This document shows, piece after piece, positions 4,772-53,551 of a DNA stretch of 64,000 bases. The stretch lies in contig CAMZIO010000002.1 in assembly GCA_947307255.1 (NCBI GenBank), forward strand, positions 39,638 through 103,637, given 5' to 3'. The stretch comes from an uncultured Clostridia bacterium. Lineage in GTDB: Bacteria; Bacillota; Clostridia; Oscillospirales; Oscillospiraceae. The translations under genes and the position numbers were made by a program. The notes beneath the pieces were generated by a model. That model was not told the DNA's origin. It saw only the letters and a program-made list of their open reading frames with translations, and made no database searches. Position 1 is the stretch's first letter; each line of letters opens with the position of its first letter.

Positions 4772-5014
4772 ATGATGAGTTTCATCCCATGCAGTGCAAA
4801 TTGCGTGTTTCAAAATGACGGCGCCTGCGCGCTGCAATACGCAACCGTGATCGGACGGGCGGATCGCGGTGGCAACGATTGCCTGCACTATATCCCGCGA
4901 AACGCCGCGCTCAGGAACGCGCAATGGCACGCAGCGCCTCCCCGATATTCTGCACCGGAATCAGGCGAAGTCCCTCCGCCTTCCCCAGGCGGTCTGCATA
5001 CTGTTTGGGAATGA
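4772..5014 (+). CDS. Small Cys-containing protein of unknown function
   Basis: An 80-residue ORF with an AAAAGGAGTG ribosome site. The N-terminal half, with CSANCVFQNDGAC and then NDCLHYIPR, has the Cys spacing of small Clostridia proteins that probably bind metal or form a compact Cys-stabilised fold. That part looks genuine. The C-terminal 35 residues lie antisense to the end of radA and look like low-complexity read-through, so the functional part may be only about 45 residues. It overlaps radA tail-to-tail by about 100 bases. No function can be assigned. Confidence 0.6.
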   Translation: MMSFIPCSANCVFQNDGACALQYATVIGRADRGGNDCLHYIPRNAALRNAQWHAAPPRYSAPESGEVPPPSPGGLHTVWE

Positions 5015-6275
5015 TGCAGGTTTCAAAGCCAAGACGCTCCACTTCGCTCAGCCGCTGACCCAGGTGGCTGACGCTGCGGACCTCGCCGGTGAGCCCGACC
5101 TCTCCGATCGCTGCAACACGCGAGCCGATGGACCGGTCGAGATAACTGGAGGCAAGCGCAAGGATCGTCGCCAGATCCGCCGCTGGCTCGTCCAGGGTAA
5201 GCCCGCCGATCACGTTGATAAAAGCGTCGCAGCCCAGCACCTTCAGCGCACCGCGCTTTTCCAGCACCGCCATGAGCATGGCGGCGCGGTTATAGTCAAA
5301 GCCGTTGCTGTTGCGGCGCGGCAAGGACTGTCCTGCCGGCGCAAGCAGCGCCTGTACCTCCGCAAGGACGGGGCGTGCCCCCTCCATCACGCAGGTTACG
5401 CAGGTACCAGGCGCGTCAGCCGGGCGGCCGGCAAGCAGCATTTCCGAGGGATTCGGCACTTCGACGAGTCCTTCGCTCTGCATTTCAAATACGCCGATCT
5501 CATTCGTTGCACCGAAACGGTTTTTTGCCGCGCGCAAAATACGGTACGTCATGTGCTGATCGCCTTCAAAGTACAGTACGCAGTCCACCATGTGCTCGAG
5601 CACCTTCGGTCCTGCGATAGACCCCTCTTTGTTGACGTGCCCGATTACGAAGACCGTAGTCCCCTGCCCTTTGGCAAGCTGCATCAGCGTCATGGTGCAT
5701 TCTTTTACCTGGCTGACGCTGCCTGCCGGAGAATCCGACTCTTCTTGATAAAGCGTCTGGATCGAGTCAATGATCAGAATATCCGGCTGCTCTTCCTCCA
5801 CGCTGCGCAGCACATCCCCCAGGCAAGTCTCAGCGAGCACGAGGAGATTCCCGCTTGCCACGTGCAAACGCTCTGCACGCATTTTTAACTGCCGAGGAGA
5901 TTCCTCGCCAGATACATATAAAATGCGCGATGATTCTGCCATTTTCCCACAGATTTGCAACATTAACGTGGATTTTCCGATGCCTGGGGCGCCGCCGACC
6001 AGCACGAGCGAGCCTTTCACTGCACCGCCACCGAGCACGCGATCCAGCTCGCCCATGCCGGTGGCGAAGCGCAGCTCCTCCGAGACGTCCAGCTCGGTAA
6101 CCGGATGCGCCTTGGCGCGCGCCATACCGCCGGGACGGGACTTCCCTGCCGACGCGGATTTCGGCACGACCTGCTCCGTGATCGTGTTCCACGCGCCGCA
6201 TTTCAGGCAGCGTCCCGCCCATTTCGCCGTCTCGTTGCCGCACTCCGTGCAGTAAAAAACCGTTTTTGCTCTCAT
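4911..6275 (-). CDS. radA: DNA repair protein RadA
   Basis: A 454-residue RadA/Sms protein that helps process recombination intermediates and branch migration. Visible in order: an N-terminal C4 zinc finger (Cys 9, 12, 23, 26), Walker A GGAPGIGKST at about 94-103, Walker B around DILIIDSIQT, the RadA-specific KNRFG motif in RAAKNRFGATNE, and a C-terminal Lon-protease-like domain. Length is normal. It follows the cwlD-like gene by about 13 bases and is probably cotranscribed with it. Its 3' end overlaps the convergent small Cys-rich gene. Confidence 0.97.
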   Translation of the reverse strand: MRAKTVFYCTECGNETAKWAGRCLKCGAWNTITEQVVPKSASAGKSRPGGMARAKAHPVTELDVSEELRFATGMGELDRVLGGGAVKGSLVLVGGAPGIGKSTLMLQICGKMAESSRILYVSGEESPRQLKMRAERLHVASGNLLVLAETCLGDVLRSVEEEQPDILIIDSIQTLYQEESDSPAGSVSQVKECTMTLMQLAKGQGTTVFVIGHVNKEGSIAGPKVLEHMVDCVLYFEGDQHMTYRILRAAKNRFGATNEIGVFEMQSEGLVEVPNPSEMLLAGRPADAPGTCVTCVMEGARPVLAEVQALLAPAGQSLPRRNSNGFDYNRAAMLMAVLEKRGALKVLGCDAFINVIGGLTLDEPAADLATILALASSYLDRSIGSRVAAIGEVGLTGEVRSVSHLGQRLSEVERLGFETCIIPKQYADRLGKAEGLRLIPVQNIGEALRAIARS

Positions 6276-8026: not shown

Positions 8027-8064
8027 GAAGAAGGCAGCACCACTCGGTGCTGCCTTCTTCTTTT
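8027..8064. terminator. Bidirectional terminator between converging genes
   Basis: A perfect 15-bp stem, GAAGAAGGCAGCACC with its complement (8027-8041 and 8046-8060), a loop ACTC and then TTTT on the plus strand. It ends both the plus-strand transcript from the cotJ side and the minus-strand late operon. Confidence 0.88.
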
Positions 8065-11000
8065 ATCCTCCCAGCGACGGCAGGCTCAGCCCGCCCCCTC
8101 TGGCATTGCCGAGTTCCTTTGCATCCAGCACCTGCTGGCCGATGCTCCGGCTGTACGGATTGTTCTTCGCGCTCTTCGACGTTGTCATCAACTGCCACAG
8201 TACCGCACTGTGATTGCTCGGCAGTCCCGCATTTCCTCCCAGTGTTGGCAGGCTCAGCCCACGTACCGCGCCGCCCATGGCGTCGATGGCCGCCTTCACT
8301 TCGTCCTGGCTGTAGCTTCCGTTCTGGTTGGCATCATACTCCGGCATGATCTCCTTGAGTTTGACGTAGCTCTCCGGCTGCACGCCGAACCTGTGCGCGA
8401 TCTCGATCTTTTTATACTGATCTTCCGGCATGACCACGCTCAGCGCCTGCATCTGTTTCTCCGCGCCGCTCACCGCGTCCAGTGCTGCGCGCCACTTCTG
8501 CACGTCGCTAACCTCTTTCTTACCTTCCTGCGGTTTCAGTCCGCCTATCCCCTCGGCTACGCTTACCGCCGTCTTGATATCAAGCCCGGCGTCCTTGTAC
8601 TCCAGCACCTTCCCGAGATCCATGCCGTCGGCCCGAAGTCTCATCGCCTGCGAAGGGTCCAGCCCCGCGTCCATCGCTCGAAGCAGCTTCGCGTACTGTG
8701 TCGGATTTCCGCCGTCCGTCTCCAGATCGGTCCCCATGACGTACCCCGCCGCGACCTTCGTCTGCTCCTTGTTCAGCTTCATTCCTGCCAGCGTGCTCAG
8801 CTTGTCCGCCGTACCGCCCGCATCCTTGAGCGTCATCACAACCTCGCCAGCCCGCCCGCTGTCCATGCCGGCGTCGGTCATGGCATCCATACCTTCGCGC
8901 TCCTTATCGCTGGCGAGCAGGCCGTAGAATACAATCGCCTTGCCCTTGTCGTTTATGTTGGACGACTGCAGGATCTCCCTCTGGCGCTCCGCCTTGCTCT
9001 GCTCATCTCCTGCCTTTGCGCTTCTCAGCTCGTCGATCAGGCCATACGCCTCGCGGCTTTTCACGCCTGCCGCGGTCAGATCCTCATAGATCGCCGTCTG
9101 CTTCGCGCTCAGGCTGTTGAAACCGTTGTTGACCCACTCGCGCGCTGGCTTCAGGCTGCTCTTTCCGAAAAACAGCGCCCTGGCGATGTTCCCCGCCGTC
9201 TCCGCTTTGGAGTTGTTGAACACGGGATACTGCAGCACCTTGTCGCCGTTGCTGTCCATCGAATAGCTTCCGCCCTCGATGATCGCCTTCGTGCCTTTCC
9301 ATGCCTTTTGCAGTTGGTTCCCGCCGAACGGCAGCGCCGCGTAGATCAGCGGCTTGCTCAGCTCTTTCCCCGCCGTGCTCAGACGCTTCTTTCCGCTCCA
9401 CTTGTCGTTCACCGCGGCCTTGGCCAGATTCTCCACGTCCGGCAGCGAGCTGCTGATCGGGATACGCCCGCCGCCGAGGATCCCGCCGACCATCGGCAGC
9501 TCGTCCACAGCGTTCTTGGCCAGATTGCCCAGCGCCTCATACGTCCCGGTCTTCTCCGTTTTCAGCGACCTGTCCTCGCCGGTGATCGCTTCGATCATAT
9601 TGGGCAGTTCATACCCGGTCAGATCTCCAGCCGTTTCGTTCAAAATGCCGATGGGGTCCAGCGCGCATCTGCGCCCGACGAAATACTCGTAAACGTCGTT
9701 GAAAAGGTATGCCCCCAGGAAGTATTTCAGCAGCGTTCCGACGAGCACCGCCATACCTCTTTCCCTGGCCACCTTCGGCAGATCCTTGAACACCTCGCTG
9801 AACTGATTGTTCACCTCCAGCTGGAACTGCGTGAACAGCTTCACAATCGGATTGCTGGACTGGAACAGCGTCGGCATGCTGCCCTTGCTCCGGTCCGCCA
9901 TCACGCGCCGGGCGAATGCGTCGGCGTCGTCCATGGCCGCCTGCTCGCTCATGTTGTGCCGAAGATTCTGGTTGTAACGTGCGCGCACGATGCTGTCCGA
10001 AGCAAACCTGTCGATCAGCTCCATCGGCGTGCCCAGCACACCGGAGGCCTTTTGCTGCCAGTTTTTCACCAGCGGATCCGTCCCGCGCCTGCTCGTCAGA
10101 AAGGCCGACCGCTCCGCAAATCCGTCTTTGTTCTTGTAGGCCTGCAGCGTCTGCCACATGCCCTTGAGGATCTGCCCGCTCTCCAGCTGCGCGTTGGCCT
10201 GCGTCAGCGGGATGAAGTTGGTCAGCGCGCTGCCGATGTTGCCCGCGATCATATTGGCGCCCACGCGGCTTTCCCAGTTTTTCATGATCGTATAGGCGCG
10301 CCGCCCGATCATGGCCTCCATGTTGCGGTCGTACTTGCTCTTCTTGTTGGCCAGCAGGTTGGTGTACTCCTCCAGCTCGTTGACGAAGTTGCCCAGCTCG
10401 AACTTGCCGTGCTCATAGATGGCGTCTATCTTTGTTTGCTTCTCGTCCTCCGTCAGCCGTTTGTCCTGCAGCACCTCGTCCACCTGCTTGCGGATTCCCT
10501 CGTCGCTCGTGCGATAGCGGATCTGCTGCGAAAGCGCGCGCAGGTTCTGGATGTTGTCGGTGTGGAAAATCACGTCGCCGGCGCCCTGCACGTACTTGTC
10601 AAAGCCCTCCACCGCGTCGTACGCCGTGTTGAAGCCCAGGCGCTCCTGCGCGTTTCCAAACCATGCGATCCCCGGCTTGAAGGTGTGCGTCAGGCCGTTG
10701 ATGGTCGTCGGCAACGCGGTGATCTCCGTCGTGATCCCCATCGCCTTTCCAAACTGCGTGAGGATTCCGTCGCTGCTCCCCGGCTGGAAGTGCGGGAAGT
10801 ACCCGTGGCGGTAGTTGATCGGCTCGTAGCCGTTGCGGACGCGCACCTCGTTCATCCGCTCAAAAAGCTCGTCATAGATGTCGCGGAAGTTCTGCACCGC
10901 CTGCTCGATCTTGGCAAAGTCCAGGTTCGGATTCTGCTCCTTCAGGTTCTCCACGATCCCCTGCCAGTCGCTCAGCGTCTTGCCGTCCCGCTCGCGCAGG

Positions 11001-14000
11001 CGGCCGCGGCTTTTCTGCAGCATTTCGATGTTGTCCGTCGCCTCGCCCAGCAGCTGCACGGCGTGCGCCTCGCTGACCTCGTTGCCCTGTTCGATCTTTC
11101 TGGAAAGGTTCATCTTCCGCACGCGGTCGCGCATCTCGTTGAGCCAGCGCGTCTTGTTCGCCTCGGCCTTATGTACCGGCTCGATGTACGCCTCGGTGAT
11201 CCGCTTTGCTCCGGCCTTGTCCCGGAACACGTCCTCGATGTTGCGCTCCATCGTTTCGCGGGACAGAAGCAGCCCTGCGATCTTGTCCTTCGTATGCCCT
11301 GCCTCTCGCAGCATGGCGTCGGCGCTCTCCCGCCGCGCGGCGCGGATCGAGCGCTTGAACTCGCGCAGCTGCTCAGCGTATTGCTCATACTCCCTCTTCG
11401 CCTCATAGACCTCGCGGATCCCCTTCGCGTTGCTGTCTCCCGGCAGGGACTCCGGTGTGATCTCGCCGCGCAGCAGCCTGCCGACCAGCAGCTCGTCGCT
11501 CTCCGTCAGCAGGTTGCGGCTCACCGCGCGGTCCACACCGCGCCGCAGCTGCTTCACCTGCTTCCAGGTCTCTTTCGCCTCGGCCACAGTCAGGATCTTC
11601 TTTTGCGGCTTCTCCGCTTTCTTATCCGCGTCATAGCGGCGCACCGTGCGCAGCTCCGTCAGCGTCTGGTTCACCGCCTCGGCAAAGTCGTTCTTTGCCC
11701 ACGCCTTGAAGTCCTTGCCGTTCTGCTCGTCCAGCGTCTTCTCCACGCGGTCTGTGCTCTGCGATACCTCCAGCATTCGCCGCAGCTGATCCGCCGGGCG
11801 CGTGATATCCGCCGGGAACATATCCGGCGCCATGTCCTGCAGCTGCTCATAGGCCACGTCCACCGGAAGCCCGCCCGAATTGACGATCTTCAGCCTCCCC
11901 GTTGCACTCCTGCGCCAGTCTCCCCAATCCGTGAAGTCGGCCTTGTCCGTCTCGCTGATCGTTACCGCCGTCGTGCGCATCCGGTTCCGGACCTCTTTGT
12001 ACGTGTCATACATCTCGCTGTCCACGATCCGCCCCTGCTCCCAGGCTGTCTCAAACAGCCGGTCCACGGTCTCCTGCGAAACGCTGCCGCTTTGCAGGTA
12101 CTCGTCGCTCATTTCCCGCACCATGCCCTGCAAATAATCCCGCCGCGCCCAGCTTTGCACGTCCAGCGCACCGCTGATGCGCCGCAGCATGGCATTCTCC
12201 GTGCGCTTGAGATAGTCCCTCGCCTTTTGCGGCAGCGTGTCGCGCACATTCTCCGCGGTCTCCTGCGCGCTGTCCTCGATGCTGAACGCCTTCTTCCCGC
12301 CGTCCTCCATGCCCAGCTGCCGCGCAATCTCGCGCTGGAACGGCGTGCGGGTATCCGTTTTCTCCAGTGTCGGCAAACTCAGCCCTCTTACATTTTTCTG
12401 TTTAATTTCCTTGACATCTTGCCCGCTGTCTGGTACAGTATCGCCAGAGACCAGCGGCTCTGGACGGCTTTTCTTGGCTTCGGCCAAATCAGTCACGCGA
12501 CGCTGGTCTTGTTCTGTGTAAATGCGATGTACCCAAAACAAATTGCGTTGCGGGCTTTGCCGAATGTCAATATAGACCGGATAGGTTTCTCCTCCAATCT
12601 GCACGTCAGCCTTGATATAGCTGTACGTCAGATTGGAGTTTTGATTATGTTCATTAGCCTGATCCAGCGCTACAATTTTGCCGTTTTCAATAATCTCCGG
12701 CAGCATCCTTGCCGCAGCCAACTTCAGCTCTTTGATTTTCCTCGGAAGCGTTTCGTACCTGTTTCCTCTTCCGAACGTCTCAAAGATGCCTCGCTTGCTG
12801 ATTTCAACGTTTCTGCCGGTCGCGTTGTTGGTGACTATCCTGCGCCCATCCGGTCCCAAGATACCTTCGTTTTTCAGCGTGTCAAAAACCTGGTTCTGAA
12901 CGTGAACGTAATCGTTCACCTTTTCGATCCCGAAGCCCTGCAGCAACTGTTGCGCTTCCTCGTCGCTGATGCTGTACTCCCTCAGCATAGACACGTCGTT
13001 CAGGCTCTCGTCCTCCTCCAGTGCGTCCATGGCTTCGTTGTATTCCTCCTCGGTCAGCTCCCCGGCCTCCAGACGTGCCGCCAGATCCTCGCGGCCCCGG
13101 TTTACCTGCTCGTTCACCCGCCCGGCCTCATAGTTCCCGCGCGTCTCACTGAGCGCACGGCTGTAAAGCTCCCGCGTCCGCCGCAGGAAGGCGCGCTCCT
13201 CCGCGTTCTTGTTGCCCAGCTTGGCCAGCAGTGCGTCGATCACGTTCAATATCCGCTCGCCGAAGCTCGGCTCATAGGCCACGATCTCCCGGATAGCTGC
13301 CTCGTCCGTCAGCAGCCTTTTCTCCACGAACTCGGCCACCAGCTCCCGCTCCGCGCTCTCCCGGTCCAGCGTAACGCCGTGGCGCGCGTAGCTCTCCTGC
13401 TTGCGCGTCAACGCCTGCGCAAGGTCCTCCTGCCCGCCGATGCGGTTGAGAATCATGCTCTTGATCCGCGCGTAATCCGCCGCGCCCTCCAGTGTGTGCG
13501 TCAGCTCGTGCCCCACGATCTGTGAAACGGCGTTGCCGCTGTTCACGTTCACGTAGATCTTCCCGCTCTTTCGATCGAAGTAACCGTTCTCTCCGGCGTC
13601 GCCCTGATAGAATACGACCTCCCGGCCGATGGCCTCGCTCAGCCGCTGCACGCGCTCCGTGGTCTCGCGGTCCACGTTCAGCACCCTTGCCGACCATACG
13701 AAATCCGTCTCCGGTTCCATGCCCATCTGCCGCGCGACCTCGCGCTGGAAGTCCGTGCGGTTATCCTGCCTGTTCTGGGCTTGTGCCGTCTCCCCCTGAA
13801 AATATCTCCCAAGGTTTGGAAACTGCTGAGCATCAAAAGGCTTTGCCTGCTGCGCAGTCTCCGTCTGTGCCGTCTGCGGCTCCTGTGCCGCCGGACGGTT
13901 TTTTTCATTTTCTGCAGAAGTCTCCGGCGCTTTATCCGTCTGCTGAATCCTGCGCGCCTCGTCCGTCGCCTGCCGCAGCAGCACGCCCACCTCGCGGTCG

Positions 14001-15391
14001 CTCACGCTCTCGCCGCGCGCAATCTTATCCTGGATGATCTGCGCGCTCTTGCTCGTTTCGTCGCCCATGCCGAGACCCATCTGCACCAGGTCGTTGAGCA
14101 TCCCCTGCTGCTTGATCGCCGCGCCGGTCTCCTGGTATGCGCGCTCCAGCTTCGCCTTTTGTGCCGTGCTGTTCACACCGCTTGCGGCCAGCGCCTGCCC
14201 GCCGCCGAGCACGCCGCCGACCACCGCGCCGCCGGCATACTCCTGTGCGGACGTCCGCGGGTTAAGCACTGCGTTCTCGTCCGTCAGCGAGGCGATCGGA
14301 TTCTTTTTCCCGTAGGCAAGGTTCTGCAGGCCTCGCTCCACAATGCCCTGCCAGACTTCCTCTCCGCCCTCCTCGTGCGCCGCTTTCAGCCAACGCTTGA
14401 AGGTCATCGGGCCTTCCTTCAGCTCGCCCGGCAGCGTCTCAAGACCGCCGCCTACTTCGATTGCTGCGTTGCCCAAACCGTTTGTGAGCGCGTAGAGCGA
14501 CGCCTGCATCTCGCTTGCACCGTCCTCCTTTGCCTGTGCATAGCTGTTTCCCGCCGTCTGCAGGAAGCTCGTCCAGTACTGTGGATTCTTCGCGTAACTC
14601 ATGGCAATCTGCCGCACGCTGTTGAGGATCGTTGGGCTCGCCTGCGCCGCCGTCGACAGAGCCTCCAGCCCTTGTCCGCCCAGGCTCATGCCGCCGCTCA
14701 TGAACGCGCTGACCGCCTGCGGGATCGCCGCCACCGTTGCCGCGCCGTATCGGTCGAGGAGTTCTGCCGCCTTACCGCCTTTTTCGATGTTTTCCGCGTA
14801 CTTTTTTTCTGCCGCCTGCTGCTCGCGTTTGATTCCCTCGTTCCACTTGTAAAAAACGCCGTGCTGCTCCTGCAGATCGTCAAGACCGGTCAGCGCCTCC
14901 GGAACGGCAAAGAGCGCCTTTTCCAGCCACGACAGCGTTTCGGACATACCGCGCGCTGCACTTGTCGTGCCCTTCTCCGCCATTCCTGCGAGGAGCTTCC
15001 CTGCAGAAAAGCCCGTCCCGCTTTTCTGCTGCAGCGCACCGCGGCGCGGGTCAATTCGCCGCGCACGTTCCCGCGCCGTTTCTTCTTCGCCCCCGCCGAC
15101 CGTCTCCGTCTCTGCCGTTGGCTCAATCACACGCTCCCGCGCATAGGATTCCTGTTTCTTGCGCTGTTCTATCTCCGCCGCCCGCGCGCGCAGGCGGTCT
15201 CTCGCACTCGTTTCCTGCTGCCCCTGCATCCGCTCTACCGTGCGCGCCGCGTCCAGCAGATCAAGCATCTGGTTTCGCTGCTGCCTCTCTATCTCCGGCT
15301 GTGCTTTAATCTCCGGAAGGGCAGCGGCGCGCCGGCGCAGACGATCTCTCGCTGTGCCGGCGCCGTTATTGTTGAAATATCCCAGTGGCAT
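8063..15391 (-). CDS. Giant phage polyvalent / DNA-ejection protein with metallopeptidase motif
   Basis: A 2442-residue protein, last in the late operon, where podoviruses encode proteins injected with the DNA. The N-terminus has three charged repeats of the type ARDRLRxRAA. A zinc-peptidase motif HELTH lies near residue 628. Residues about 820-1003 form a more A/T-rich module (RGIFETFGRGNRYETL, then QSPQRNLFWVHRIY) resembling domains of polyvalent proteins. Long helical regions follow. The C-terminal part has short repeats and an EF-hand-like loop DANQNGSYSQDE. The linker GLSLPTL recurs three times. Individual activities are not proven. Start ATG has a GGAGGAG site. Confidence 0.75.
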   Translation of the reverse strand: MPLGYFNNNGAGTARDRLRRRAAALPEIKAQPEIERQQRNQMLDLLDAARTVERMQGQQETSARDRLRARAAEIEQRKKQESYARERVIEPTAETETVGGGEEETARERARRIDPRRGALQQKSGTGFSAGKLLAGMAEKGTTSAARGMSETLSWLEKALFAVPEALTGLDDLQEQHGVFYKWNEGIKREQQAAEKKYAENIEKGGKAAELLDRYGAATVAAIPQAVSAFMSGGMSLGGQGLEALSTAAQASPTILNSVRQIAMSYAKNPQYWTSFLQTAGNSYAQAKEDGASEMQASLYALTNGLGNAAIEVGGGLETLPGELKEGPMTFKRWLKAAHEEGGEEVWQGIVERGLQNLAYGKKNPIASLTDENAVLNPRTSAQEYAGGAVVGGVLGGGQALAASGVNSTAQKAKLERAYQETGAAIKQQGMLNDLVQMGLGMGDETSKSAQIIQDKIARGESVSDREVGVLLRQATDEARRIQQTDKAPETSAENEKNRPAAQEPQTAQTETAQQAKPFDAQQFPNLGRYFQGETAQAQNRQDNRTDFQREVARQMGMEPETDFVWSARVLNVDRETTERVQRLSEAIGREVVFYQGDAGENGYFDRKSGKIYVNVNSGNAVSQIVGHELTHTLEGAADYARIKSMILNRIGGQEDLAQALTRKQESYARHGVTLDRESAERELVAEFVEKRLLTDEAAIREIVAYEPSFGERILNVIDALLAKLGNKNAEERAFLRRTRELYSRALSETRGNYEAGRVNEQVNRGREDLAARLEAGELTEEEYNEAMDALEEDESLNDVSMLREYSISDEEAQQLLQGFGIEKVNDYVHVQNQVFDTLKNEGILGPDGRRIVTNNATGRNVEISKRGIFETFGRGNRYETLPRKIKELKLAAARMLPEIIENGKIVALDQANEHNQNSNLTYSYIKADVQIGGETYPVYIDIRQSPQRNLFWVHRIYTEQDQRRVTDLAEAKKSRPEPLVSGDTVPDSGQDVKEIKQKNVRGLSLPTLEKTDTRTPFQREIARQLGMEDGGKKAFSIEDSAQETAENVRDTLPQKARDYLKRTENAMLRRISGALDVQSWARRDYLQGMVREMSDEYLQSGSVSQETVDRLFETAWEQGRIVDSEMYDTYKEVRNRMRTTAVTISETDKADFTDWGDWRRSATGRLKIVNSGGLPVDVAYEQLQDMAPDMFPADITRPADQLRRMLEVSQSTDRVEKTLDEQNGKDFKAWAKNDFAEAVNQTLTELRTVRRYDADKKAEKPQKKILTVAEAKETWKQVKQLRRGVDRAVSRNLLTESDELLVGRLLRGEITPESLPGDSNAKGIREVYEAKREYEQYAEQLREFKRSIRAARRESADAMLREAGHTKDKIAGLLLSRETMERNIEDVFRDKAGAKRITEAYIEPVHKAEANKTRWLNEMRDRVRKMNLSRKIEQGNEVSEAHAVQLLGEATDNIEMLQKSRGRLRERDGKTLSDWQGIVENLKEQNPNLDFAKIEQAVQNFRDIYDELFERMNEVRVRNGYEPINYRHGYFPHFQPGSSDGILTQFGKAMGITTEITALPTTINGLTHTFKPGIAWFGNAQERLGFNTAYDAVEGFDKYVQGAGDVIFHTDNIQNLRALSQQIRYRTSDEGIRKQVDEVLQDKRLTEDEKQTKIDAIYEHGKFELGNFVNELEEYTNLLANKKSKYDRNMEAMIGRRAYTIMKNWESRVGANMIAGNIGSALTNFIPLTQANAQLESGQILKGMWQTLQAYKNKDGFAERSAFLTSRRGTDPLVKNWQQKASGVLGTPMELIDRFASDSIVRARYNQNLRHNMSEQAAMDDADAFARRVMADRSKGSMPTLFQSSNPIVKLFTQFQLEVNNQFSEVFKDLPKVARERGMAVLVGTLLKYFLGAYLFNDVYEYFVGRRCALDPIGILNETAGDLTGYELPNMIEAITGEDRSLKTEKTGTYEALGNLAKNAVDELPMVGGILGGGRIPISSSLPDVENLAKAAVNDKWSGKKRLSTAGKELSKPLIYAALPFGGNQLQKAWKGTKAIIEGGSYSMDSNGDKVLQYPVFNNSKAETAGNIARALFFGKSSLKPAREWVNNGFNSLSAKQTAIYEDLTAAGVKSREAYGLIDELRSAKAGDEQSKAERQREILQSSNINDKGKAIVFYGLLASDKEREGMDAMTDAGMDSGRAGEVVMTLKDAGGTADKLSTLAGMKLNKEQTKVAAGYVMGTDLETDGGNPTQYAKLLRAMDAGLDPSQAMRLRADGMDLGKVLEYKDAGLDIKTAVSVAEGIGGLKPQEGKKEVSDVQKWRAALDAVSGAEKQMQALSVVMPEDQYKKIEIAHRFGVQPESYVKLKEIMPEYDANQNGSYSQDEVKAAIDAMGGAVRGLSLPTLGGNAGLPSNHSAVLWQLMTTSKSAKNNPYSRSIGQQVLDAKELGNARGGGLSLPSLGG

Positions 15392-34613: not shown

Positions 34614-34892
34614 CTATTTCCGCTTTTTGAACCAGGCCTCGTAAAAGGCTTTCCGCCGCTCGTAGAGCACGCTCTCGCTCACGTGGTGCCGCAGTGCGAT
34701 CTCTGTTACGCCGCCGCGCGAGCACATCACCTCGCGCAGCGCCTCCTCGTGCTCTCCGCCGCACGTGCGGCACAATCGGTCGATCTTCTCCCGCACCCAC
34801 TTCGGCTGCTCCCGGTATGTAAGGCAGGTATAGCGCACCAGCCCCTGCTTTTCCTCCGGCAGGCGGACGCCTTGCAGCTTCCGAAAGCTCAC
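34614..34892 (-). CDS. ArpU-like late transcription regulator
   Basis: A 92-residue basic protein with a C-terminal helix-turn-helix-like segment (GGVTEIALRHHVSESVLYE). Small proteins of this shape (ArpU, RinA, late sigma-like factors) are typically the last early gene before the terminase and switch on late transcription. Contains a Cys pair CRTCGG. Overlaps the Rep gene by four bases (ATGA). Family assignment tentative. Confidence 0.6.
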   Translation of the reverse strand: MSFRKLQGVRLPEEKQGLVRYTCLTYREQPKWVREKIDRLCRTCGGEHEEALREVMCSRGGVTEIALRHHVSESVLYERRKAFYEAWFKKRK

Positions 34893-35701
34893 TCCCGCCG
34901 CACCTCCGTCCCGTCTGCGTCGATCACGCGCTCCTTGTGCCCGCCCACCTTCGGCGGCCGGGGCTTACGGATATAGCGCACGTAGTGGCTGCCCGATCCC
35001 TCCTCGTACTTGCCGATCTCCAGCACCGTTGCGCCGGGCGGCGTGTGCAGCTCCCGCGCCCTCGCAACGATCTTTTCGCTCTCGATCACCGGCTGCTTGA
35101 GCCCTCTGCTGGCATGCCATTTCTTCGCGTCCGGCCTATCCCGCCGCGCCTGCGCGACAAAGTAGGCGGCGATCGCCGTGTAATCGTCCTGTTCACGCAA
35201 GGGCTTCACGTCCGCCGTCCCGTTTCCCCAGATGTCGGCAAGCGTCCGCTCCCCGATCCGCGCACCCAGGATTTCCCCATGCTCTCCGCGCTCGATCTCA
35301 ATTCCCTCTGTCGAGATCACCGCATGATGGTGCAGGCGCACCAGCTCACCGGTTTCTGGATCTGTGTTGCTCGTCATCCACACGCCGCGCAGCTTCACGC
35401 CCCGCGCCTTCAGCTCCCGCCGCATACGCTTCCACCAGCGGCCGCCCTCGCGCTCTGCCGCGTCGAAGTCCTCGCCCACCTTGCCGATGTTCTCTTCGTC
35501 GTAGGTCAGCGTCAGCAGCAGATCCCCGTGGGACCAGTTACAGTTTATGGTCCTCGCCAGCCGCTTCACGGCGTCGCGCAGGTTGGCGTCCAGCTTTTTC
35601 GCGCTGCTCGCGCCCTTCCGCCTCTCCTGCCTCGGCTTTCGCCGCCCCACGTAAAACTGGCTTTTTTCGATCACCTTTCCGCTCCGTATCGTCCGGATCA
35701 T
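34889..35701 (-). CDS. HUH-type replication initiator-like protein
   Basis: About 270 residues. It has the order seen in rolling-circle initiators: motif 1-like LLLTLTYDEE, the metal-binding motif RLHHHAVIS (about 120-128), and a downstream Tyr in DDYTAIAAYFVAQARR, the candidate nicking residue. HUH Reps nick one strand at an origin and stay attached to its 5' end. The ATG at 35701 with GGGGG is better than the track start 19 codons earlier. The hairpin-rich gap upstream could contain its origin. No helicase, primase or polymerase gene was seen in the element. Confidence 0.72.
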   Translation of the reverse strand: MIRTIRSGKVIEKSQFYVGRRKPRQERRKGASSAKKLDANLRDAVKRLARTINCNWSHGDLLLTLTYDEENIGKVGEDFDAAEREGGRWWKRMRRELKARGVKLRGVWMTSNTDPETGELVRLHHHAVISTEGIEIERGEHGEILGARIGERTLADIWGNGTADVKPLREQDDYTAIAAYFVAQARRDRPDAKKWHASRGLKQPVIESEKIVARARELHTPPGATVLEIGKYEEGSGSHYVRYIRKPRPPKVGGHKERVIDADGTEVRRE

Positions 35702-35878
35702 CCAATATCCCCCCTCCATCGTCGTCGACTCCTCCTTCGTACTTCTCTCGCCGATCACCCCCGCGCGCGCACGTTCTCTGTCCCGTCCCGCGCACCCGCG
35801 CAGCGTCCGCGCGACCGCCTTAGCTTTTCTTTCTGCGCTCGGATCAGGGGGCGCGTTTTCTCACTGCGCCGCCCGATG

Positions 35879-36140
35879 GCTCTAAACTTAGGCCTTTAAG
35901 AGCCCCGCAATTACGCGCGCACGCGTAATTATAATAGTCAAAAAGCGCAGGCACTTTTTGAAATAGGCTTCACTCCGCTCATCGCACGCCTCGGCGCATC
36001 CCGGCCAAGGCGCACGTTCGCTCCGCGCAAAGTGTATTTTCCGACGCACATGTCGCCGGAAAATACGATGCAGATTCTTTCGCGGCTCCGGCCGCGAAAC
36101 TCTGCGAGGCCCTGTGAAGTTCCGTCCCGCGTCCGCTCTC
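35879..36140 (-). other. Hairpin-rich noncoding region beside the Rep gene (within 35702-36174)
   Basis: No convincing gene in 35702-36174. Perfect or near-perfect inverted repeats line up: GGCTCT (35879-35904), AATTACGCG (35909-35930), TCAAAAAG (35938-35961), a 9-bp stem 35987-36012 that is fully paired only if the minus strand is RNA (one G-U), TATTTTCCG (36035-36065) and TTTCGCGG with an outer 5-bp extension (36070-36105). A minus-strand structured RNA or a replication origin would fit. The 74-codon track ORF here is not supported. Confidence 0.5.
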
Positions 36141-36174
36141 CGGGCGCAGGACGCAGCCTCACGACTGCGTTGTT

Positions 36175-36630
36175 TTAAGTATTTTGAAGCGTTTTCAGCT
36201 TCGCCTCGGCCTCCTCGCGTGTGCGAAAGACGGTTTTGCCGAGAAGGTCGATGTCATCTTGTTTGCACGGCCTTTCATACACGAACATTTCTGCCTTTTC
36301 GCATAAGTCACAGCACCCCTCGCCATCAATCGAAACCGGACACACGAGATCGCAATCCTTTCCAGCGTCCCACGTTGGCTCAAAAACAGTTTTGCACGGC
36401 AGCACCAGCAGGCGGCCTTCGGTGTCTGCTTTTGACAGCACATCTATGTGTTGAAGATTCGGGAAGCGTCTCCTTACGTACTCTCTATAATCGCTGCATT
36501 TCGCCACCTCCTCCGGCTCCAGCCCAGTGTCTTCGTAGACAGCAAGGCGGTTGATCGCGTCTTGTTCCGAGCAACAACTGCGCAGACCCGCATCTCTGCC
36601 ATCATTTGGAACAAATGTCAGTCTCTCCAT
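36175..36630 (-). CDS. Phage early protein, Cys-rich, unknown
   Basis: A 151-residue protein. The N-terminal AINRLAVYEDTGLEPEEVAKCS is a stretch common in Clostridia phage early proteins. Two later Cys clusters (DCDLVCPVSIDGEGCC and DLCEKAEMFVYERPC) could bind metal. The C-terminus FRTREEAEAKL is helical. ATG at 36630 with GGAGAG; a GTG just before it is an alternative. No function known. Confidence 0.7.
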   Translation of the reverse strand: MERLTFVPNDGRDAGLRSCCSEQDAINRLAVYEDTGLEPEEVAKCSDYREYVRRRFPNLQHIDVLSKADTEGRLLVLPCKTVFEPTWDAGKDCDLVCPVSIDGEGCCDLCEKAEMFVYERPCKQDDIDLLGKTVFRTREEAEAKLKTLQNT

Positions 36631-38561: not shown

Positions 38562-40424
38562 TCACGCCGCGCCTTTTCTCCTTCTCTTTTTCTTCCCGCT
38601 CATCAGCTCCTCGGCAAGTCCCGCCGCCTCGGCCTCGCGGAATTCTTCTTCTCGCACCTGCCGGAACGCCGGCGTCAGGACCTCTTTTTCCCAGCGGTTC
38701 ACGAACGCGCGCACCTTCTTCGGGATGTGCAGCTGCTTCCCATTCGCGTATTCGTTCCCGTATCCGTGCAGCTGCACCTCCTTCCAGGTTTTCCCGGTCG
38801 TGTCGATGTTCAGCGTGAACCAGCTCCGGTCTTTTCTGCGCGCGTGCCGGATGAACACGATCAGCTCGCCGTGTAGATGCGTCTGGCCGTAGCCTCCCAC
38901 GCAGTGGTGCAGCGTGCGCCCCTCCGCTACCAGCTCGCCGTTGTCCCTCGGCAGCACCGCGCAGATCACCCCGTCGCTCCACTCCAGCGCGCGCCACTTT
39001 TCGCGTACCGTCTCGAATTCCGCGCGGCGTTCCTCCGCCTGTTTCGCCCGCTCGATCTCGGCAAGCCGGTCGTGCGCGGCGCGCAGGTTCGGCGGCCACA
39101 GCTCGTCCTCCGTCGGCTCGGCCACCACACGGTTCAGCATGATCCGATAGTCCATCATCAGCTCCAGGCTTTCGCGTCCGCCGAGGCGGTGCTTCCGCCG
39201 CTGCTTTTCGAGGTATCGGTCGAAGTCTCCCAGGAACCATTCCCAGCCCTCCTCGCCGACGTAGCTGATAAACTCCTCCAGTTTTTCCTCTGTGTAGACC
39301 TGTGCCATGCGGTTCAGCTCCGTCGCGTCGCCGCGCCGGATACCGCCATAGTCCACGAAGTTCCACCACAGCAGCGTCATCTGCTGGCTCCATTTCCATT
39401 TTCGGCCCTGCTTTACCTCCTCCCGCGTCATGAACAGCATGTCCATCGGCTTCGCGTAGTCCCAGTGTGCCATCCAATCCAGATCCTCCGGGCATTCCAG
39501 CTTCCCGTTGTAGTTCTGACGTGCGTTCAGCTCGTCGCCGATAAAGCTGTCGATCGTCTCGACCCACCCGGCCTTCACCAGGTTCTCGATCGTCGCGTGC
39601 TCCCGCCAAAAGCGCAGGTATAAGTACGGGTACGCCCCGCCGCCTTTCACGTAATCGGCCAGCCCGGTCTTCTCGCCCGTCTGCCCCAGCTGCTCCGGCA
39701 CGTCTGGGCAGATCCATCCGCCGACCGCCGTGTGGTTGATCGATCCGTAGTCGTAGTAGCGGTACTGCAGCGGATCCGCCGCGGTCTTCTGCCTCTCCCA
39801 CTTCTCCAGTGGGTATAGCTTTCCGCTAACGTCGAAGCCACAGTGCTTGTACAGCTTTAGCTTCCCGTCTTTGTCTATCACCACCGCGTGCGTCGGCGCG
39901 CAGCTCTCCTTCTCGTCTCCCTTTGGGGAAAACCACCGCGTCAGCAGCCAGTAGACTACCGCGGTGTACGCTCCCACGTTCTCCACGCTCGCCGCCATGA
40001 TCTGCCAGGTGCGTCCGTTCCGCAGCTTCCGCGCCGGCAGCGCCATCAGTTCCTTCTCGCACCACGGGCAGGCGACCTCGTCGCCCTCCCGGCTCATCAG
40101 CGTCTCGTCCGCCGGCGTGTCATCCGTCGGCACGCCGGGAAAGCTGTTTCCGTCATAGTCCACGTACATCCGGATCCCGTCGCCCAGCCACGCGGAGAAC
40201 CATTCCTCGCCGCAGTGCGAGCATTTGCACCGCGCGGCCCACTTCGGCCTCGGCTCCTCGGTCTGGTACAGCGGCCAGCCGATCTCACCGTCCTCCGGGA
40301 TGTACTGCGCACGCTTATATGTCAGCAGATGCAGCCCGAGTTGCCGGTCCAGCTTCTTCGCGGCCCACCGCATCATCTCCTCGCGCGGCTCCACAGGCAG
40401 CATTGATAGAATGCTCTCCATCAC
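38562..40424 (-). CDS. PcfJ-domain protein
   Basis: A 620-residue protein. N-terminal zinc-type pairs (CKCSHCGEEWFS near 90 and ACPWCEKELM) are followed by a large helical region. The PcfJ signature RTLHHCVGGYG lies near residue 506, followed by FIRHARRKDRSWFTLNI and the RxxNxxxxE-like end. PcfJ proteins occur in conjugative plasmids, transposons and phages; their biochemical role is not settled. It follows a PcfK-like gene, the usual pairing. ATG or the next ATG may be used. A large shadow ORF (38461-39801) overlaps in another frame. Confidence 0.8.
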   Translation of the reverse strand: MMESILSMLPVEPREEMMRWAAKKLDRQLGLHLLTYKRAQYIPEDGEIGWPLYQTEEPRPKWAARCKCSHCGEEWFSAWLGDGIRMYVDYDGNSFPGVPTDDTPADETLMSREGDEVACPWCEKELMALPARKLRNGRTWQIMAASVENVGAYTAVVYWLLTRWFSPKGDEKESCAPTHAVVIDKDGKLKLYKHCGFDVSGKLYPLEKWERQKTAADPLQYRYYDYGSINHTAVGGWICPDVPEQLGQTGEKTGLADYVKGGGAYPYLYLRFWREHATIENLVKAGWVETIDSFIGDELNARQNYNGKLECPEDLDWMAHWDYAKPMDMLFMTREEVKQGRKWKWSQQMTLLWWNFVDYGGIRRGDATELNRMAQVYTEEKLEEFISYVGEEGWEWFLGDFDRYLEKQRRKHRLGGRESLELMMDYRIMLNRVVAEPTEDELWPPNLRAAHDRLAEIERAKQAEERRAEFETVREKWRALEWSDGVICAVLPRDNGELVAEGRTLHHCVGGYGQTHLHGELIVFIRHARRKDRSWFTLNIDTTGKTWKEVQLHGYGNEYANGKQLHIPKKVRAFVNRWEKEVLTPAFRQVREEEFREAEAAGLAEELMSGKKKRRRKGAA

Positions 40425-43902: not shown

Positions 43903-43930
43903 TTGCGCATTAAGAAATTTATGTTATAAT
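43903..43930 (+). promoter_or_regulatory. Repressor (lysogeny) promoter
   Basis: Plus-strand TTGCGC (43903-43908), 16-base spacer, TATAAT (43925-43930). Drives the repressor and probably the whole lysogeny block. Confidence 0.7.
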
Positions 43931-43952
43931 GCCCTCGAAAGGCGGTGATAAA

Positions 43953-44567
43953 ATGCCGATTAGCGATATGCTAAAAGCTCGTCGAGCAGAGCTCGACCTT
44001 ACTTTGGAAGACGTTGCCAAGATCGTCGGCGTCACTCGTGCAACCATACAAAAATATGAAAATGGCATCATCTCCAATATCCCATCCGACAAGATTGAAG
44101 CCTTGGCAAAAGCCCTTAAAACCACGCCATCTTACCTGATGGGTTGGGATAACGATCTCCCTGATAATATCCTTCCCATGCCGCACACTCGGCGCGTCCC
44201 TCGCCTCGGCACGATCGCCTGCGGCACGCCCATCACCGCCGAGGAAAACTTTGACGGTTATGATGAGGTGCCCGACTGGGTGCACTGCGACTTCACCCTC
44301 ACCTGCAAGGGCGACAGCATGATCAACGCCCGCATCTATGACGGGGATATCGTCTGCATCCGCCGCCAGGATACGGTTGAGACCGGCGAGATCGCCGCCG
44401 TCCTGATCGACAACGAGGCCACGCTCAAGCGCGTCCGCCTCTTTGACGATCACATCGTCCTGGAAGCGGAGAATCCCACCTTCCGCCCCCTTGTCTACTG
44501 GGGCGAAGAGATGTCCAACGTCCGCATCCTCGGCAAGGCCACACACTTCATCAGCACGGTCAGATAA
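43953..44567 (+). CDS. Phage repressor, XRE helix-turn-helix with S24 peptidase domain
   Basis: A 204-residue CI/LexA-like repressor. The helix-turn-helix covers about residues 5-60 (LTLEDVAKIVGVTRATIQKY). The S24 domain has the cleavage-type Cys-Gly at 90-91 (GTIACGTPI), catalytic Ser122 in CKGDSMINARI and Lys159 in ATLKR, so RecA-stimulated self-cleavage after DNA damage is expected. The ATG at 43953 has AAAGGCGG ahead; the track start is eight codons early. Divergent from the Cro-like gene. Confidence 0.9.
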   Translation: MPISDMLKARRAELDLTLEDVAKIVGVTRATIQKYENGIISNIPSDKIEALAKALKTTPSYLMGWDNDLPDNILPMPHTRRVPRLGTIACGTPITAEENFDGYDEVPDWVHCDFTLTCKGDSMINARIYDGDIVCIRRQDTVETGEIAAVLIDNEATLKRVRLFDDHIVLEAENPTFRPLVYWGEEMSNVRILGKATHFISTVR

Positions 44568-46945: not shown

Positions 46946-47273
46946 AACAGACCGCGACTTCATCAGCGCCATGCGCACGATGGTTAAGCGCGTACGCGAT
47001 GGGCTCCCTGCATTGCCTGAGAATCCAACATCTCAAGATCTTGAAATACTTACCGAGTGCATAAATCAGGGATATCTTCTTTCCAGCTATGAGCATAACG
47101 GCGAAAAAGTCTTCCGCACAACGGACGGTCTTCCTCATCCAAAGATTATTCCCGGCACCGTTCCCCTCAAAGGGCTTGCATTCATTTCGTTTAAGATCGA
47201 CTTGAAGTTCTTTATACCAACCCTTATCTCGCTTGCCGCTCTTGTTGTTTCCATCGTTTCTCTATTTAAGTAA
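46920..47273 (+). CDS. Small C-terminally anchored membrane protein, helicase partner
   Basis: A 117-residue protein. Residues 1-90 are basic and soluble-looking (MKRVRDGLPALPENPTSQD-type sequence, then YLLSSYEHNGEKVF). The last ~25 residues form one membrane segment (FIPTLISLAALVVSIVSLF). It begins inside the helicase gene. A membrane effector working with a nucleic-acid-sensing helicase is a plausible reading, but no family was recognised. Confidence 0.7.
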   Translation: MQKKSKQIKTDRDFISAMRTMVKRVRDGLPALPENPTSQDLEILTECINQGYLLSSYEHNGEKVFRTTDGLPHPKIIPGTVPLKGLAFISFKIDLKFFIPTLISLAALVVSIVSLFK

Positions 47274-47289
47274 CGAAAGGAGGCTCGCC

Positions 47290-48750
47290 ATGCCCGAATA
47301 CAAACTTGCCGCCGCCTATATCCGCGTCAGCACGGAGGATCAGACGGAGCTCTCCCCCGCCTCCCAGCTCACGGAAATTCGCAAGTGGGCCGCGTCGCAC
47401 GGCTACATTGTCCCGGACGAATTCGTCTACGCGGACGAGGGCATCACCGGCCGCAAGGTCGTCGGGCGCGACGCCTTCCGTCGCATGATCGGCACGGCCA
47501 AGACCAAGCCCAAGCCCTTCGACGCGATCCTGCTCTGGAAATTTTCCCGCTTCGCCCGCAACCGGGACGACGCCGTCATGTATAAGTCCATCCTCCGCAA
47601 GCAGCTCGGCATTGAGGTCCTCTCGATCTCCGAGCCGATGGCCGAGGGCAAGATGGGTATCATCACCGAGGCGTTGATCGAAGCCATGGACGAATACTAC
47701 TCCATCAACCTTGCCGAGGAGGTCAAGCGCGGTATGGAGGAAAAGCACCGCCGCGGCGAGCTGCAGTCCACCCCTGCCTACGGCTACGCCGCCGAGAACA
47801 ACGTGCTCGTCCCCGTCGAGCCGGAGGCCGCGCACGTCAAAGAGATCTTCCGACGTTACATCGCCGGCGAGGGCACCTTCCAGATCGCCCGCTGGCTCAA
47901 CGAGCTCGGCGCGCATACGCACCGCGGCAATAAATTTGAAAACCGGACCGTCGAATATATCCTCAACAATCCGGTTTACCTCGGGAAACTCCGCTGGAAC
48001 CCCGCCGGCCGCACCCGCCGCAAATGGGACGCGCCCGAGATCGTCCTGGTGGACGGAAAGCATGCGCCGCTGATCACGCAAGAAACGTGGGACGCCGCGC
48101 AGCGTCAGCTCGCCGCGACCAAGGCTATTTGGCAGTACCACGGTCGCCCCGCCGAAGTCCAGAAGGACTGGCTCTCCGGCCTCGTCCGCTGTTCCTCCTG
48201 CGGCTGCACACTGGTCTTCGCCAAGCCTCACTATTGGAAATGCAACGGCTACGTTCACGGCCGCTGCCCCACCGCGCAGCACGTCAGCGATAAGCTGCTC
48301 AAAGACGCGATCCTCCGCCGCCTGCAGGCGGACGCCATAGACTGCGGCGACGAAGTAGTATCCGTCTCCGTCGTTCGAGCCTCAGACGGCGGGGAAACGG
48401 CTCTCACGGCCCTTCGTTCCGCCCGCGACTCCACCGCCCGCAAGATCGACCGTCTGCGGGATGCCTATCTCTCCGGCGCCGACACCGTAGAGGAGTACAA
48501 GGCCGCCAAGGAGTCCATGCAGCGCCAGCTCGCGCAGATAGACGACCAGATTGCCGCCGCAGAGCAGAAGTCCGCCACCCTCGCAACACCCAAAGCTTTG
48601 CAGAAGGACATCCGTGCCACCCTCAAGACCCTGACCTCCGCCACCGCCACCATGCAGGAAAAATACACCGCCGCACATAAACTCATCGACCACGCGACGT
48701 GGAACAAAGCCGAAAACCTCCTGCAAATCCACTACCGCCTTATTTTTTAA
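47290..48750 (+). CDS. int: Large serine recombinase (prophage integrase)
   Basis: A 486-residue large serine recombinase. The resolvase domain starts YKLAAAYIRVSTEDQ with catalytic Ser14 and has the downstream Arg residues in FSRFARNRDD. A recombinase domain (about 155-260; FEIARWLNELG-type stretch) follows, then a zinc ribbon near 300-335 (CSSCGCTLVF ... CNGYVHGRCP) and a coiled coil. Such enzymes join attP and attB without help and need an excision factor to reverse. The ATG at 47290 has GAAAGGAGG; the track start is 19 codons early. attR begins 26 bases after the stop. Confidence 0.93.
   Translation: MPEYKLAAAYIRVSTEDQTELSPASQLTEIRKWAASHGYIVPDEFVYADEGITGRKVVGRDAFRRMIGTAKTKPKPFDAILLWKFSRFARNRDDAVMYKSILRKQLGIEVLSISEPMAEGKMGIITEALIEAMDEYYSINLAEEVKRGMEEKHRRGELQSTPAYGYAAENNVLVPVEPEAAHVKEIFRRYIAGEGTFQIARWLNELGAHTHRGNKFENRTVEYILNNPVYLGKLRWNPAGRTRRKWDAPEIVLVDGKHAPLITQETWDAAQRQLAATKAIWQYHGRPAEVQKDWLSGLVRCSSCGCTLVFAKPHYWKCNGYVHGRCPTAQHVSDKLLKDAILRRLQADAIDCGDEVVSVSVVRASDGGETALTALRSARDSTARKIDRLRDAYLSGADTVEEYKAAKESMQRQLAQIDDQIAAAEQKSATLATPKALQKDIRATLKTLTSATATMQEKYTAAHKLIDHATWNKAENLLQIHYRLIF

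Positions 48751-50801: not shown

Positions 50802-53551
<2,750 letters not shown>

Follow-up and report, generated by a model that had tools for sequence, protein, structure and literature searches.

The six hairpins that precede the replication gene in a clostridial prophage are more than chance would give, yet they are a juxtaposition of two unrelated features and not one structure. Probably, the two are an origin module of the phage and a mobile element of miniature size that belongs to the host order and inserts at terminators. The dispersed element, with a target duplication as long as the hairpin it meets, is the surprising part, and most of the evidence for it lies outside the window (the whole 64,000-nucleotide stretch analysed here); the origin candidate is a worthwhile yet ordinary prediction.

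Two sets of hairpins upstream of a prophage Rep gene

The source genome has a size of 1.66 Mb, and the window is part of its contig C2. The window contains a prophage with chromosomal genes on both sides, namely a transketolase (875-1807) and a RadA-like ATPase (4911-6275) to the left, and a DNA ligase (50802-52862) and metabolic genes to the right. The prophage encodes a large serine integrase (47233-48750, plus strand), a repressor (43929-44567), a terminase, a P22-like portal, and a major head protein. Its HUH replication-initiation protein (Rep) consists of 289 amino acids, is encoded on the minus strand at 34889..35758, and matches Pfam REP_ORF2-G2P (E 9e-9) and the replication initiation protein family PHROG 3584 (E 1e-43). 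A prophage reading frame of 2442 amino acids (8063-15391, minus strand) has no PHROG match, and a PcfJ-like protein (38562-40424, minus strand) is related to PHROG 8470, whose function is unknown.

The first-pass annotation described six inverted repeats within about 230 bases without a gene, and all six are present, spanning ~225 bp with no convincing gene inside. Starting nearest rep, the arms are located at 35878-35886/35896-35904, 35909-35917/35922-35930, 35938-35948/35951-35961, about 35983-35991/36007-36016, 36034-36046/36054-36066, and 36078-36086/36091-36099. A plain listing of inverted repeats gives five stems; the fourth (~35983-36016) was seen in other analyses, including the covariance model R1. 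The folding of the whole 262 nt beats 200 of 200 dinucleotide shuffles on each strand, with z-scores of -3.46 for plus-strand RNA, -3.50 for minus-strand RNA, and -3.84 for DNA.

A blastn search of the same genome with 35700-36300 as the query finds six other places, all of which match 35951-36110 or part of it, and the two rep-proximal hairpins lie outside all six matches. The close Rep relatives L081 and L082 keep the two rep-proximal features but show no trace of the four-hairpin repeat. The set is split in two because the matches within the genome cover only the four-hairpin part and the close Rep relatives keep only the rep-proximal two.

A conserved module in front of rep

The two rep-proximal hairpins form a module at 35878-35930 on the minus strand. 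The first part is a hairpin (35878..35904) carrying the block GGCTCTTAAAGGCCTAAGTTTAGAGCC in the Rep sense, a candidate origin that is conserved upstream of the Rep start in related phages. The second part is a GC palindrome, AATTACGCGTGCGCGCGTAATT (35909..35930), which stands before the block with changed but still complementary arms in seven of seven phage lineages. In L082, L208, L211, and L212, a palindrome with a GCGCG core and AT-rich arms is followed by GG..C..TAAGAGCCTAAGTTTAGAACCA or a variant upstream of Rep, and the Reps share 59% (L081/L082), 52% (L208), 39% (L211), and 32% (L212) identity with the window Rep. Besides the window, six phage lineages have the module ahead of an HUH Rep of this kind in different surrounding DNA, and the palindrome arms vary in concert from lineage to lineage so that pairing is kept. 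The independent lineages number seven including the window, as L228 has the sequence of L212 and L221 and L222 are near-identical. In five lineages (L208, L211, L212/L228, L221/L222, and L223), 19-55 nt separate the end of the block from the Rep start. This distance is 157 nt for the window prophage and 264 nt for L082; thus, the spacing is not fixed.

The block pattern alone matched 5 of the 295 genomes of the order, and three of the five are exactly the three Rep-bearing genomes, while the reversed pattern, used as a control, gave no match in the same 295 genomes. The block matches at L213 and L214 are inside ordinary genes and were rejected. A search of IMG/VR gave 12 contigs, five of which (L208, L221, L222, L223, and L228) have an adjacent HUH Rep ORF with the palindrome in front, and the other seven have neither. 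A loose form of the pattern matched viral contigs mostly by chance, with a Rep only in one contig already known. The conserved block is missing from the five more distant Reps examined.

The usual layout of a rolling-circle origin is a palindrome and an adjacent conserved block beside rep. Such an arrangement beside an HUH rep gene, kept in relatives, was found here in seven lineages. The module is conserved in place and in its palindromic form, and it is probably a double-strand nicking origin of the phage's own, at which the HUH Rep would bind and nick. The nicking origin proposed in the first-pass annotation thus survives as a candidate for the two rep-proximal hairpins and fails for the other four, which belong to a dispersed chromosomal repeat. 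The main rival to the origin reading is that the module serves as an operator or promoter region of rep, not as a nicking site. In most relatives, it precedes the Rep start by 19-55 nt, a position at which an autoregulator would bind, and an AT-rich stretch precedes the palindrome; however, no sigma-70 pattern was found there, and a palindrome with an adjacent block beside rep is what a rolling-circle origin usually looks like, so we consider the operator rather unlikely, although it is a serious contender. As a predicted origin, the module offers a short conserved candidate for tailed phages that carry an HUH Rep.

A dispersed element flanked by duplicated hairpins

The other four hairpins belong to an element read on the plus strand. 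HP1 (35936..35963; TCAAAAAGCGC..GCACTTTTTGA) is terminator-like, and its sequence varies between copies while the pairing stays. The core (35964..36110; 137.3 bits and E 1e-33 with R1) contains HP2 (35983..36016), which has a symmetric CA/CA internal loop, HP3 (36034..36066; GTATTTTCCGACG..CGCCGGAAAATAC), HP4 (36078..36099; TTTCGCGGCtccgGCCGCGAAA), and the tail CTCTGCGAGGC. The covariance model finds 14 copies in all in the source genome, within the genus, 17 of 18 genomes have between 2 and 57 copies each, and copies also exist in 32 of the 295 genomes of the order, covering 18 of 148 genera, other families included. In a 399-genome sample of the phylum, the element was found only in the source genome and one member of the family. 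Rfam 15 scans gave no match in the window and no credible one at the element, either in six copies or in the region. An exact-pattern scan of viral contigs returned one chance match inside a coding gene of a phage (L040), and an antiterminator switch in which HP1 would pair with HP3 was set aside, since by eye the two vary independently.

The stems are conserved among relatives by the covariation analysis that the first-pass annotation had suggested, but conserved as a mobile repeat. In 90 aligned copies, 94.0% of 3339 cells are paired, and 35 of the 39 pairs show double changes. The double-change cells number 468, whereas shuffles give 120 and slid controls 41-113. The alignment favours structure, having been fitted to the model. 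As the copies are related, the excess over shuffles alone is no proof, and it is the slid controls together with the number of varying pairs that make the covariation strong. Over the same copies, G.U mismatches (77) and A.C mismatches (82) are equally frequent (p 0.75) and hence mark no strand as a functional RNA. The stem once described as complete only in minus-strand RNA proves to be two, the third and the fifth, each with a single plus-strand A.C mismatch that becomes a G.U pair when read on the minus strand, and both are cases of this symmetric scatter. A structured minus-strand transcript, as also proposed, finds no support in these counts, and most copies are oriented the opposite way relative to the preceding gene; a structured RNA made from one strand was rejected for the missing G.U bias. 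The mismatches agree better with DNA-level hairpins, with use in either direction, or with repair between the arms of a hairpin than with a one-strand RNA.

We aligned near-identical copies from two other genera (G200 and G127) and found the same locus-specific hairpin on both sides of the element. Among ~93 copies whose flanks were compared, 28 have left-right direct repeats with local scores of 15-41, and in 276 mismatched control trials, with the left flank set against the right flanks of other copies, the score was at most 12. In G200, 24 of the 26 full copies found via the left end have a flanking duplication of 20-41 bp. The duplicated stretch is the hairpin itself, with a median of 12.5 stem pairs against 6 (maximum 12) in random stretches of the same length, and usually 0-1 nt lies outside the stem at either end. 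The second hairpin copies are often followed by a T-run and the first copies often come after A's, as terminators would show. The element ends read (T)CAGnnTGTCRAAAA and its imperfect inverse, terminal inverted repeats are seen in most full G200 copies and several others, and copies with visible ends have a full length of 186-261 bp without a gene. At the ilvD locus, nine congeners of G200 are without the element, and several of them have a single terminator-like hairpin after ilvD; this comparison is supporting, not decisive, because the terminators there have diverged. Tandem cases are seen at L044 and L294, where the end of another element abuts the first hairpin copy. The order element-hairpin-element-hairpin at these two loci resembles an array.

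The family thus resembles a miniature transposable element with intrinsic terminators as its target, one that makes a second copy of the hairpin regardless of hairpin length. We infer from the duplicated locus-specific hairpins observed in relatives that the element would be inserted after cuts at the two feet of the hairpin on opposite strands, by a recombinase presumably supplied in trans, and that filling in after these staggered cuts would leave a complete hairpin copy on each side. Whether such miniature elements recognise terminators by hairpin shape and not by sequence, with the hairpin setting the length of the duplication and the phage copy lying beside the origin palindrome, is an evenly balanced proposition. 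If true, it would be a new structure-guided choice of target, after which each side of the element still has a working terminator. Bacteria commonly have small intergenic hairpin-rich repeats, often with no explanation of how these spread. In this family, a fresh copy carries the terminator of its host gene twice, so the insertion scars are readable. They make hairpin-guided insertion directly testable, point to a landing rule that is harmless, after genes and between stop signals, and render the search for the enzyme tractable.

The element could instead be a 3'-UTR device kept by vertical descent and rarely moving, such as a terminator, an mRNA stabiliser, or a protein-binding RNA, with its stems under RNA selection. 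A gene in the same direction precedes 54 of the 70 copies with an upstream gene call, often with no more than 10 nt from the stop codon, although these counts come from a rough ORF caller that miscalled the window itself (a shadow ORF antisense to rep). Copies occupy the same place in several species (L012/L017/L076/L030 and L007/L020), and such shared positions imply that these copies have a long history and that a function may have preserved them; the strong covariation points the same way. Against this, G.U and A.C mismatches are balanced, unlike in RNA made from one strand, and the hairpin duplications show insertion. We regard a purely vertical device as possible but rather doubtful; a 3'-UTR function and insertion may both be true at different times. 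The L007 copy (contig C2:39225-39354) lies ~280 bp to the left of where the window starts. An aldolase-like gene has its stop 8 nt ahead of this copy, and a phosphofructokinase-like gene follows after 6 nt; a second species also has a copy at this place (L020). Another copy is followed after ~40 bp by a ribosomal protein L10 leader (Rfam RF00557; L006:1663-1794).

The flanking hairpin copies could also have arisen by recombination or template switching with a nearby hairpin, for example by hairpin copying in replication, and would then be no target-site duplication. The length of the duplication follows the hairpin (20-41 bp) with no fixed stagger, and no transposase was found. However, as would be seen in transposition, the same inverted ends abut the hairpin at many loci of one genome that are unrelated to each other, and we consider template switching rather unlikely.

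Y1_Tnp (PF01797; IS200/RAYT) is absent from all eight element-rich genomes tested and was found in two of seven others. It is therefore very improbable that a RAYT or an IS200-type HUH transposase moves the element as a repeat of the REP/BIME type, even though the element is hairpin-rich, intergenic, dispersed, and often at the 3' ends of genes; moreover, IS200-type elements are not known to make a target duplication. End-sequence scans of G200 and G127 found no gene-bearing, autonomous copy. L300, considered as one, proved to be a truncated copy of the left end that follows a fusA-like gene, and the solo ends and mini-element between two terminators at L305, L306, and L310 have no transposase. 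The mini-element at L310 (G127, ~1500) has 47 bp, with perfect inverted ends CAGCCTGTCAAAA..TTTTGACAGGCTG, and lies between two different terminators.

The copy in the window is well preserved (137.3 bits) yet differs by ~18% from its nearest relative in the same genome. Its left end is directly beside the phage module (..CGCGTAATTATAATAG followed at once by TCAAAAAGCGC) and its right end is eroded; the right flank (36111..36174, no strand assigned) has further weak hairpins and no duplicate of the left flank. Neither here (flank score 8) nor in the copies inspected in the same genome was a flanking duplication seen, so for this copy, arrival by the terminator or hairpin route is only inferred. 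The element is missing from 14 of 14 related Rep loci examined, so the copy most likely entered the prophage by insertion. It would then have landed next to the phage palindrome and not at a terminator, which is consistent with hairpin targeting. The copy is oriented against the phage genes, and a possible role of its HP1 is that of a terminator ahead of rep. In the rep-upstream gap of L082 (2300-2420 and 2900-2970), there is a different GC-rich repeat-like sequence (CCCTCATCCGCCCC..GGGGCACCTTCCCC..AGGGGAAGG), which looks like another host repeat family. It is extremely unlikely that all six hairpins form one unit, be it an origin of phage replication or a regulatory RNA of the phage: the set adjoins an HUH Rep and folds strongly as a whole, but four of the six are a repeat that follows ordinary chromosomal genes and is missing from all related Rep loci examined, and a single six-hairpin phage origin was rejected on the same ground.

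Comparison with known origins and mobile repeats

The module resembles the rolling-circle double-strand origins of HUH Rep replicons in having a hairpin and a conserved block beside rep, but its sequence has no assigned counterpart among described origins, and it is a predicted origin only. In the case of the element, the combination of terminator targeting and duplication of the whole hairpin was not found described in the literature covered, which leaves out most subscription journals, although single traits are shared with several systems.

REP/BIME repeats with RAYT transposases are intergenic, hairpin-rich, and dispersed (PMC2817692), and so is the element, which differs in its inverted ends, the hairpin duplication, and the lack of a Y1 transposase in the element-rich genomes tested. 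SPRITE of pneumococcus is an AT-rich terminator-like hairpin repeat at the 3' ends of genes with no duplication established (PMC3049150). The element is likewise a small dispersed repeat, terminator-like and enriched at gene 3' ends, but SPRITE is itself the terminator-like hairpin, and its AT-richness and lack of an established duplication set it apart.

Bacterial-C (group IIC) introns insert at Rho-independent terminators and so do little harm; they are located just after the terminator and consist of a large ribozyme with a reverse transcriptase (PMC8919778). The element shares the insertion at terminators, but it has ~200 bp and no gene, and the hairpin is duplicated; the Rfam scans gave no group II intron match, and no ORF is present in the element. 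The IS1202 group is similar in its unusually long target duplications, of 16-28 bp (PMC10132070) or 24-29 bp (PMC10045372). Its family has TGT..ACA ends, and for the group with long duplications no target could be identified (PMC10132070, PMC10045372). The element copies do not have TGT..ACA ends; instead, they have CAGnnTGTC.. ends, a terminator hairpin as the target, and a duplication whose length follows the hairpin.

Bacterial MITEs are shorter than 500 bp, carry no gene, have inverted ends and stable stem-loops, lie between genes, and show flanking direct repeats around young copies (PMC10969869). The element is alike in all these respects: the family is short and non-coding, with terminal inverted repeats and a target-site duplication, the latter not seen at the window copy. 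It differs in being GC-rich, with no cognate insertion sequence found in the end-sequence scans of G200 and G127, and in the flanking repeat. In MITEs, this repeat is a few bp, such as the 7-9 bp of QMITE2 (PMC10969869), whereas in the element it is site-specific and comprises the whole terminator hairpin of 20-41 bp.
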